This document shows positions 22,026 to 28,551 of a DNA stretch of 64,000 nucleotides, piece after piece (position 1 is the first letter of the stretch; each line of letters begins with the position of its first letter). The notes under the pieces were generated by a model. The model ran no database searches. It was not told where the DNA came from and saw only the letters and a program-made list of their open reading frames with translations. The position numbers and the translations under genes are program-made. This DNA comes from Bdellovibrionales bacterium (GTDB lineage: Bacteria > Bdellovibrionota > UBA1018 > CAIMNF01), in the NCBI GenBank assembly GCA_018266375.1, contig JAFEAO010000006.1, forward strand, positions 62,001 to 126,000, read 5' to 3'.

Positions 22026-24908
22026 ATGAAGGCGTTATGCAGGATTTCGGTTGTTCTCGCCATTGTTGCAAGCGCATTTGCAGCGCGTGCCGAAAACCCC
22101 TGCGAGAAGATCTGGAACCTAAGCGTCGGTGATCACCGGGTGATCAGCGAGTTCTCGACCGAGAATTCCCGTTTTGCGGATGAGGGCAAAAAAATCGTCT
22201 CCGTTGCGGTATCGGGCGAGGATAGCCACGATTTTCTAGTCGTCACTCAACCCGGCACGACCGAAGAAAAAATCATTGATCCTTTCCCGGCTCGCGTCTA
22301 TCCGGGAACCGAAGTCCGTCTGTCCGCGGATGGCAACTATGCGGTCTTTATTCCTCCGGCAAAATTTCAAACTCAGCCGTCCGTCTATGACGTACAAGCC
22401 GACAGTTTCCGTAAGCTGAAGGAGTTTGCCAAGGCGTCGGATGTTTGGATTGTCAAAAACTCTCGCTATGTGATCGCAAAACTCCCGGATATGTCGGTCG
22501 GTGTCTATAGTATGGAGACGGATCGCATATCGATAGCCAAAGTCTTTAAAGATGATTGGGATTTGAACGAGATGGGAATATCGGATCAAGTCCTATTGAG
22601 TGCCGACAATGGATACAGCCGTATTCTGAATTTGGATACATTAGTTTCGACCAAAGTAGAGCTCTCGAGCCGCGTGATGCGTTCGCAAAGCTCGCTCGAC
22701 GGACAGACGCTCCTTCTTTACGGTGAGTTCGATCAAGACCGTGAAAACCTATATGTATACCAGGCTCAAAACAAAGCGGCGAAGGAAGTGAAACTCGATT
22801 CGCCGACCGAGGTGCAGCTTCTTCCGAGTGGTCGTGCGCTCTTGTATGTTCAGAAATCAAATCTTCGTGCTTTGAGATTGCTCGATCTTGAAAATGGCTC
22901 CGACGTCGCGATCAGCTCTAACTACGGCGATGGGTATAGCGTCTCTCTCGATGGGTCGAACATCTTAGTCCGTGGTCAGGATCAGAGCCTCCAGCTTTAC
23001 AACGCTTATTCTAAACAAGCGACGCCTTTGAATCTCGGGCATGGCGCTCAAGTGATCGAGTTCTTCTTCGGAAAATACGGCCAAAGCGCTTATTTGCAAT
23101 ACAGCCGTGACAGTAAACTCTACTTTGGGATTTACTCGGTCATCTCTCGCTCAACTCGAGAGTACGAGGTTCCGTTCAATTCGATACCTGTAGTATCAAG
23201 CGACGAACGCCGAGTCCTGTTTTCATTCGCGGATCTTGACGAGTTTCGTGGTGGCACGACGGTGCTTTACGACTTAAAGGAACTTTCGGTGCAAACACGG
23301 ACGGGCAGAATCGCCCGCTCTAAACTCGAAAATCACTTCAGCAAACTCGCCAAACCCGGACAATTCAAGGTGGCTACTAACTTAAACGAGGTTTTATACT
23401 TCTTCCAGTCGGGTGCGTTTAAGAAGCATCGTGTGCTCGCGCAGAAAATTTTGATGAACGTGCTGTCCGAGTCAATCGGCTTATACGAATCAATCATCGC
23501 GAGATATCCGGAGTTCACCCAAGACGGCGGCTTCTTCGCGGATGCGGAACGTTCAGTTATTCCGGAAATTTGGAAGAAGGGAGTAAAACGTTACTTGGAT
23601 TACTTTGTCGCCGCTCGTGCGAACGCGGATTCCATCGTCGAGAGCGTGAAGTACGTTCGTCCGGTGCATAATTATGTTGCATGGATGTCGGGTGATCGGC
23701 TTGATTTCTACGCCGATGCATTAACCGAAGCGATGGCGGATGCCGCAGTGAAGGTCGACTTTAAAGACGAATTTAAATCCGAGATTTATAAACTTTGCGA
23801 AGAATACATCTACCCGATTTTCTGGATTCCTTATCATACGGTGGTCGATCATCCGTATGCGCGCCATCCCTACCAAGTGAGCCGTACCTTCTTTGCCTCG
23901 GAACCCATCAATGGCGATCCGAGCACGAAGACCAAATATGGATTTTATGCGAAACATTTCGACGATATCATCATTCCAAAGGATGCAAAGCCGGGTGATG
24001 TGATCAAAAAAAACGAAAAGCTTACCATGACTGTCGGCAAGGACGTGTATGAGTCGACGTGGGATATCGTGGTTCAGGCCGAGTCGATTGATCCGGTGAC
24101 GCCGGAGTTGAAAAGCTTCTCGCTCGCCAAATATCGCAAGGACGGAGTACTCTCCGGCACCGTGATGGTCGGATCGAACCTGGCGGCCGAAGACGCGAGC
24201 ACGATTGCAGCTTACCTGAAGTTTTTCCGTAAGGCGGGCTATGTGCAAGATCGTCCGAGGAGCGTACACGACCTGAAAGCGTTTTTTAGAGAGCAGGTTA
24301 TTACGGGTAAAATGGATTACATCGTGTTCGAAGCTCACTCCGATGGAGACGCTACTAACGTGATTCGGATCAATACGCGAGATAAGATTCTGACCTTGAA
24401 TCGCAACAAACGCGGAAAGATGGAGACGGTTAATATCATCGTGCCGTCGGGCAAGCCCCTCGACAATTATACCGACCCGGCCCGCACGGCGCTGGTGAGC
24501 AATCAAGAGCTCGCGGAGTGGGTAAAAGTGCGCACTGACGCCGGATTCCCGCCGATTTTGATTATTCGCACCAACTGCTGGTCGGTGAGTAAGATGGTTA
24601 ACGAGATCGAAGCCGTGAACTCAACCGGATTGCAAGAAATCGCATCTCTGACGCCGGTTACATTTTTTGACAACACCAAGGACAATGCCGAGGTGATTCT
24701 CCTCAATAACTTCTTTACCGGAAAACTGTTCCGCAAGTATCGCGAGCAGTTGATGCGCAACGCTTCGTATGCGCACAAGATCGGCAACAACTTTATTTTT
24801 CCGGACGATGAAGACTTCCAGCATTACATCCGCGACGTGATCAAGCCGGTATTGCGGATTACTCATCCTTTGACTAAAAACGGAAAGCCGTACGCGATCG
24901 ATGAGTAA
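22026..24908 (+). CDS. Large secreted protein, propeller-like N-terminus and caspase-like C-terminus
   Basis: This is a 960-residue protein with a signal peptide (residues 1-22). About residues 30-420 consist of short beta-rich repeats such as DVWIVKNSRYVIAKL and LLPSGRALLYVQKSNLRAL, like a WD40 or bacterial propeller. A helical middle part (about 430-620) follows. The C-terminal part looks like a clan CD peptidase. A strand-His pattern (DYIVFEAHSDGDA, His771) is followed about 80 residues later by a strand-Cys pattern (ILIIRTNCWSV, Cys851). A helix with DLKAFFREQV precedes the His strand, as in caspases and gingipains. No named family is recognised, and the peptidase idea is inference. Codon use looks like that of its neighbours. 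Confidence 0.7.
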   Translation: MKALCRISVVLAIVASAFAARAENPCEKIWNLSVGDHRVISEFSTENSRFADEGKKIVSVAVSGEDSHDFLVVTQPGTTEEKIIDPFPARVYPGTEVRLSADGNYAVFIPPAKFQTQPSVYDVQADSFRKLKEFAKASDVWIVKNSRYVIAKLPDMSVGVYSMETDRISIAKVFKDDWDLNEMGISDQVLLSADNGYSRILNLDTLVSTKVELSSRVMRSQSSLDGQTLLLYGEFDQDRENLYVYQAQNKAAKEVKLDSPTEVQLLPSGRALLYVQKSNLRALRLLDLENGSDVAISSNYGDGYSVSLDGSNILVRGQDQSLQLYNAYSKQATPLNLGHGAQVIEFFFGKYGQSAYLQYSRDSKLYFGIYSVISRSTREYEVPFNSIPVVSSDERRVLFSFADLDEFRGGTTVLYDLKELSVQTRTGRIARSKLENHFSKLAKPGQFKVATNLNEVLYFFQSGAFKKHRVLAQKILMNVLSESIGLYESIIARYPEFTQDGGFFADAERSVIPEIWKKGVKRYLDYFVAARANADSIVESVKYVRPVHNYVAWMSGDRLDFYADALTEAMADAAVKVDFKDEFKSEIYKLCEEYIYPIFWIPYHTVVDHPYARHPYQVSRTFFASEPINGDPSTKTKYGFYAKHFDDIIIPKDAKPGDVIKKNEKLTMTVGKDVYESTWDIVVQAESIDPVTPELKSFSLAKYRKDGVLSGTVMVGSNLAAEDASTIAAYLKFFRKAGYVQDRPRSVHDLKAFFREQVITGKMDYIVFEAHSDGDATNVIRINTRDKILTLNRNKRGKMETVNIIVPSGKPLDNYTDPARTALVSNQELAEWVKVRTDAGFPPILIIRTNCWSVSKMVNEIEAVNSTGLQEIASLTPVTFFDNTKDNAEVILLNNFFTGKLFRKYREQLMRNASYAHKIGNNFIFPDDEDFQHYIRDVIKPVLRITHPLTKNGKPYAIDE

Positions 24909-26944: not shown

Positions 26945-27084
26945 GGCGACTCCGCCGCGAATGTTAGCAAAGTTGAGTGTTTTCTACAAGTTATTAAGCA
27001 ACTAGGACTAAAATCAACTATAGGCGATTATACGCCGTTTTCTCTAGATTTTATCTTGTAATTATTATATAAACTTTGTTTAAA

Positions 27085-28551
27085 ATGAAAATCGCCGCTG
27101 CACTTCTCTCGTTGTTTGTCGTTCTCGCTCTGCCTGCTTACGCGCAAGGGCCGAGTGCTGACCTCACCAATCTGGTTAAAGAAGTAACCACGCAAGTGGA
27201 TGCGATCGCGATCACCGCCCAGGACATTCAAGCCGGCACCGTAAAGGCCTTGGAGAGTATTTCAAAAATCAACCTCAACATCTTCAAGAAAAAAGATTTC
27301 GAGGACGCTCGTAAAGAACTTGTTCCTCTTATTTATAAAGCACGCATCGGCCTCCGCAAAAAAATGCAGGACCTCGATGCCGAAGGCAAGTTAGACGAGG
27401 CCACCGCGCGTTCGGTCGAGCGCACAATCCGTTACATGCGCGGGATAGAAGACTATTTGGGCTACGTGGATTCAGATCAGAAAAAAACGAAGCCGCTGAT
27501 CGGAAAGGCAATTCGGTTCCTCACTCCTGCCGGGATGATGGCGGGATACGAAAGTCTTCTTCCGGCGGATAACACGCTGATCAGCCCGGCATTCGATAAA
27601 AAAATTCGTGATGATCGAAGCAACCTCATGCTTAAATCGGGCGATTTGATTCTGAGTCGAGGCTCCGCTTCCACCAGCAGCGCGATCGCCCGTTTGGCCG
27701 ATGAAGACACGCAGTTTAGCCATGTCGCTCTCGTTTACATCGATCCAATCACCAAGAAAGGCTATCTGATCGAAGCACACATCGAGCTCGGTGTTCTCAC
27801 GTCTCCAATCGAAACTTGGCTCAAAGACGGCAAAAAACGTTCGGCTGTTTATCGCTATAAGGACACTGCGCTTGCGAAGACCGCGGCTGAAAAAATGTTT
27901 AGATTCGTTTCGGATTACAAAGCCAAAACCGGCAAGAACATTCCTTACGACTTCAGTTTCAACATGAATGACGGCACTTCGGTGTTTTGTAGTGAAGTCG
28001 TACGTATCGCGTATGCACTCGCGGATGAAAACACACACATTCCTCAGTATGCATCGTCACTGAATCCAAAAAATCGCCTGTACTTGGATCAGCTTGGCAT
28101 TCAAGAAAAGAAGTCGTTCATCCCAGCCGACATCGAGGCTGACCCTCGCTTTACTCCGATCGTCGAGTGGCGCGATTTTCCTCAGATTAAAGATAGCTGG
28201 CTTCGTGATGCGATCACGACCAAAATCTATGAGTGGATGGAGCGCGATACTCTGAAGTACCGTCCCAATGCCCTACAGCGATTCGCGGCTAAGGCGCTCG
28301 TGGGTCTCCGTCACACTCCGATTTGCGAGTGGGCGTTTAAAGATCGCCTCGCCGACAATGCGTCATCCGAAGTTGTTGGCGTCATGTTCGCGATCGAAAG
28401 TCTCTACGCTAAGGTCATGAACAAGCTTCTCGCCAAGGAGGCCGTGGTGATCGCCGCTCGCGGTACGCCATATACGCTTTTAGAGGCGGAACAGGCGCTT
28501 GAGCAAATGCGCCAGGAAGCTCCTGAGATATTCTCGAAGCTCCTGCGTTGA
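27085..28551 (+). CDS. YiiX-type permuted papain-like amidase, secreted
   Basis: This is a 488-residue protein with a signal peptide (MKIAAALLSLFVVLALPAYAQ). The centre carries the permuted NlpC/P60 (YiiX/YaeF, C92-like) pattern: KSGDLILSRG, then His213 in FSHVALVYID, then EAHIELGV, then Cys302 in SVFCSEVVRIAY. The N-terminal 150 residues are helical (KALESISKINLN), and the C-terminal 130 are also helical. Cleavage of an amide or ester in the cell wall or in lipoproteins is inferred. ATG 27085 is chosen over a TTG at 27076. No clear ribosome-binding site is seen. Confidence 0.83.
   Translation: MKIAAALLSLFVVLALPAYAQGPSADLTNLVKEVTTQVDAIAITAQDIQAGTVKALESISKINLNIFKKKDFEDARKELVPLIYKARIGLRKKMQDLDAEGKLDEATARSVERTIRYMRGIEDYLGYVDSDQKKTKPLIGKAIRFLTPAGMMAGYESLLPADNTLISPAFDKKIRDDRSNLMLKSGDLILSRGSASTSSAIARLADEDTQFSHVALVYIDPITKKGYLIEAHIELGVLTSPIETWLKDGKKRSAVYRYKDTALAKTAAEKMFRFVSDYKAKTGKNIPYDFSFNMNDGTSVFCSEVVRIAYALADENTHIPQYASSLNPKNRLYLDQLGIQEKKSFIPADIEADPRFTPIVEWRDFPQIKDSWLRDAITTKIYEWMERDTLKYRPNALQRFAAKALVGLRHTPICEWAFKDRLADNASSEVVGVMFAIESLYAKVMNKLLAKEAVVIAARGTPYTLLEAEQALEQMRQEAPEIFSKLLR

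Follow-up and report, generated by a model that had tools for sequence, protein, structure and literature searches.

An exported multi-domain protein with a predicted caspase-like cysteine peptidase domain from a Bdellovibrionales bacterium

A 960-residue protein is encoded on the + strand at positions 22026–24908 (ATG at 22026, stop ending at 24908) of the window, the 64,000-nucleotide stretch of DNA analysed here. We consider it, with good confidence, to be a cysteine peptidase that is exported and built of several domains, the C-terminal one being predicted to adopt a caspase/haemoglobinase-type fold. In the best reading of its architecture, the caspase-like domain comes last, after a propeller of the WD40 type and then helical and beta regions. 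Somewhat less securely, though on balance favoured, the protein and its homologues represent a branch of clan CD with the rank of a new family, found so far in one phylum; its members would be caspase-like peptidases that are exported, fused to a propeller and marked by an enlarged strand insert and by H-S-D-G-D in place of H-G. No family claimed the 960-residue protein in Pfam, NCBIfam, PADLOC or PDB-sequence searches, a result that leaves room for the idea of the earlier note that this could be a new peptidase subfamily. The gene has the following features:

22026..24908, + strand: whole gene, 960-residue exported protein (open reading frame and translation; single copy in its own genome)
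22026..22091, + strand: Sec signal peptide, residues 1–22, cleavage between ARA and EN (by inspection; hydrophobic leaders in relatives)
22092..23333, + strand: N-terminal beta-rich region, residues 23–436, putative WD40-type beta-propeller (alignment A1; WD40/propeller Pfam matches in L015 and L016)
23334..23825, + strand: all-helical region, residues 437–600 (AF2 pLDDT 85; common to most relatives)
23826..24098, + strand: beta-strand region, residues 601–691 (AF2 strands 175–247 of the 437–960 construct)
24099..24905, + strand: caspase-like catalytic region, residues 692–960 (AF2 pLDDT 90, pTM 0.86)
24336..24338, + strand: His771, predicted general base (conserved in 25/26)
24357..24446, + strand: three-stranded insert between β3 and α3, residues 778–807 (AF2 strands 87–92, 95–104 and 107–116 of the 692–960 construct)
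24576..24578, + strand: Cys851, predicted nucleophile (conserved in 25/26)

The window lies on contig C11 of a 2.89 Mb genome (G000), where the gene stands alone in its surroundings: a set of genes for an oligopeptide/microcin C-type ABC transporter terminates ~225 bp upstream, and a convergent YgiQ radical SAM gene lies downstream. Promoter and terminator matches were close to the number expected by chance, and a reverse-strand ORF (23721–24506) was interpreted as shadowing the coding strand. Since no neighbouring gene is common to more than four of the 26 family loci examined, no function can be read from the operon. Elsewhere in the window, positions 27076–28551 (+ strand) encode a secreted protein in which Pfam recognises a Peptidase_C92 (YiiX/YaeF permuted papain-like) domain. 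In L018 (4031–5962), the family member has immediately upstream of it a 34%-identical relative of this C92 protein, which has no Pfam match itself.

The N-terminus of the protein, MKALCRISVVLAIVASAFAARA followed by EN, is by inspection a Sec signal peptide, as had been claimed earlier, and a hydrophobic leader opens nearly all full-length relatives, so that export is a family trait. Residues 23–436 are poorly conserved in alignment A1, and this region is shortened in the relative L013. Since relatives L015 and L016 have WD40/beta-propeller matches above the Pfam cut-off, this part of the protein probably folds as a propeller, although the beta-rich repeats of the window protein itself have no Pfam match. 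The earlier proposal of a propeller is thus backed by relatives, not by the window protein directly.

With the single protein as a query, homologues were detected in 9 of the 55 genomes of the order, its own included. Profile A2 of the C-terminal part matched in 33 of the 369 genomes of the phylum (32 besides its own), scattered over many families; named relatives come from MAGs of Bdellovibrionales, Bdellovibrionaceae and Oligoflexia and from one ‘Deltaproteobacteria’ MAG. A scan of genome contigs with a single sequence gave no relatives, an alignment being needed to retrieve them, and searches of viral contigs and plasmids gave no match. Outside the phylum the reach was that of a pattern scan of genome contigs alone, and the family may have a wider range. 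Two matches were judged to be due to chance, namely, calmodulin against the profile (best E 0.04) and S-methyl_trans in one member (E 4e−4, below its cut-off). One genome (G273) carries two family copies less than 1 kb apart. The gene at L111 6041–9190 shows clear similarity to the start of the family helical region only (A2 positions 1–92); its C-terminal part is without dyad motifs, a possible domain swap. Two lipoprotein-like proteins (L114 5073–7274 and L115 4581–6644) have SH[SA]MD and N[TL]SC motifs 79 residues apart, and are apparently a more distant branch of the same catalytic domain.

The predicted catalytic residues are found where they had previously been placed, His771 within EAHSDGD and Cys851 within NCWS, exactly 80 residues apart. 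In an alignment of 26 catalytic domains, His and Cys are each kept in 25, and they are lost only as a pair, which is the outcome of the homologue check that the earlier note had suggested. Among the 269 positions of these 26 diverse sequences, the most conserved are P926, G774, S853, C851, R836 and H771. Judged from the alignment, conservation of the His and Cys motifs is far beyond chance. A point against the caspase-like reading is that, where Gly usually follows His, the family has Ser, Ala, Leu or Gly. In the sole exception (L046), His is changed to Arg and Cys to Tyr together (ESRSDGD and SSGYWS), while the adjoining motif residues remain. The same gene was also seen as L120 4794–7625, with both predicted catalytic residues replaced in the same way, and probably encodes a natural pseudo-peptidase. 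Substitution of both dyad residues is a common pattern in pseudo-orthocaspases (PMC6426788). Paired loss of His and Cys, albeit a single case, is what a catalytic pair predicts. The same relative, which keeps the rest of the domain, would also fit a non-catalytic binding or scaffold domain, that is, a pseudo-peptidase possibly binding a cation through HSDGDxxN. Further points in that direction are that the window protein deviates from the consensus beside the dyad (Asn850 for Ser and Arg848 for Asn) and that there is a weak EF-hand-like match, probably due to chance. Nevertheless, a pure scaffold would not need such conservation of His and Cys, which rank among the most conserved positions, and we regard this alternative as very unlikely.

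The sheet of clan CD peptidases is parallel, with strand order 2-1-3-4. AF2 models were obtained for residues 437–960 (8 sequences; pLDDT 85) and for residues 692–960 (26 sequences; pLDDT 90, pTM 0.86). In the latter, DSSP gives the order β1-α1-β2-α2-β3(His)-three-strand insert-α3-β4(Cys)-α4-β5. In construct numbering (add 691 for protein numbering), β1 spans 17–24, α1 33–45, β2 54–56, α2 59–68 and β3 74–78, followed by His80; then come the insert strands (87–92, 95–104 and 107–116), α3 (135–147), β4 (153–157), Cys160, α4 (163–173) and β5 (178–183). In caspases, His and Cys are located at the C-terminal ends of β3 and β4, and a small three-stranded section lies between β3 and α3 (PMC4357240). 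Compared with that description, the model reproduces the clan CD core order β1-α1-β2-α2-β3-α3-β4, with the conserved His at the end of β3 and the conserved Cys at the end of β4 (25/26 each in the alignment). The dyad and the order of elements together support the original reading of the domain as a caspase-like (clan CD) peptidase. The spacing between His and Cys, already remarked upon as longer than in typical caspases, is long because the extra length sits in the three-stranded section between β3 and α3; in L082, a C14 protein from the same phylum that Pfam recognises, 92 residues separate the two. Foldseek against the PDB produced no confident match to the model, with none at E ≤ 0.001 and low TM-scores throughout; the 50 matches listed included no clan CD entry, and the search with the 524-residue model was uninformative. 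The viral library ranked a C14 caspase-domain protein first by E-value (E 0.007, prob 0.85), a weak hit. The AlphaFold check for a caspase-like sheet thus bore out the order of elements and the position of His and Cys after β3 and β4, but not a confident structural match.

At the sequence level, the untrimmed full-length profile showed no similarity to C14 or C25. After residues 781–818 were removed, the resulting insert-free profile matched C14 proteins of the phylum with a score of 22.2 and E 0.011 over 105 columns, from β1 to past the catalytic Cys, with Cys aligned on Cys and His two columns off. None of 150 column shuffles reached this score, and unrelated α/β controls (response-regulator and short-chain dehydrogenase) never went beyond a score of 17.2 or a length of 40 columns. 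The choice of the C14 reference matters, as the 94–105-column alignment was obtained with 10 of the 19 possible reference sequences. Since a control pair of accepted clan CD families, C14 and C25, gave a stronger match (E 0.0017), the profile link between the family and C14 is suggestive, not established. It is strengthened by L110, in which the upstream region common with the family is joined to SGHSGG...FSSCFSG with a textbook caspase-like His–Cys spacing of 52, and which aligns to a C14 model on His and Cys, albeit weakly (6.3 bits). The lack of a PDB fold match, and of a significant C14 or C25 profile match before trimming, would agree with an α/β enzyme that depends on cysteine but has some other, undescribed fold, His and Cys cooperating in a domain unrelated to clan CD. 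We find this improbable, given that the order of elements, a three-stranded section in the same loop, the motif of L110 and the alignment of Cys on Cys all favour a caspase fold.

If the protein is indeed a caspase-like peptidase, it would first be exported by Sec, and the N-terminal WD40-type propeller would then dock a partner or substrate. His771, at the end of β3, would activate Cys851, at the end of β4, for attack on the peptide bond. The enlarged insert of three strands that follows His, together with the acidic DGD cluster beside His, would presumably shape the substrate site; speculatively, the acidic residues may favour a basic residue at P1 or coordinate a cation, Ca2+ for example. 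Cleavage may be directed at another protein or, as self-processing, at the enzyme itself. Caspase-like peptidases have roles in cell death, immunity, virulence and protein maturation, each family having its own P1 specificity and activation, and the phylum of the window genome includes bacterial predators. An unannotated exported family of this kind would add a specificity and possibly a role in attack or envelope processing, and would reveal the extent to which the H-G motif and the His–Cys spacing can drift.

Among known families, CHAT proteases (PF12770; found in 1 of the 241 phylum genomes searched) resemble the family in having His then Cys and a helix after the Cys strand (L089, by inspection), whereas the family has no CHAT Pfam match. 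Gingipain-type C25 peptidases (PF01364) share the clan CD order of His then Cys, but their profile shows no similarity to that of the family (E 0.2–0.4). Two Peptidase_C25 genes are present in the same genome (G000:C8:327545-328531 and G000:C5:457-1461), and C25 matches occur in 72 of 241 phylum genomes, some in ORFs of 2000–3500 residues. As for C14 (metacaspases/orthocaspases, PF00656), neither the window protein nor the A3 members gave a Pfam match to it. Fusion to WD40 is frequent among prokaryotic C14 proteins (PMC3501461). The family and C14 have in common the order of elements, with His then Cys after β3 and β4, the three-stranded section between β3 and α3, and the motif S-C-x-S; moreover, GHSDD occurs in some C14 proteins of the phylum and, in L065, L066 and L077, takes the place of GHG in a Pfam-recognised caspase domain. 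The family differs from C14 in its His–Cys spacing (67–83 versus mostly 37–55), in having a helix directly after Cys and no HG, and in being exported with helical and beta regions of its own.
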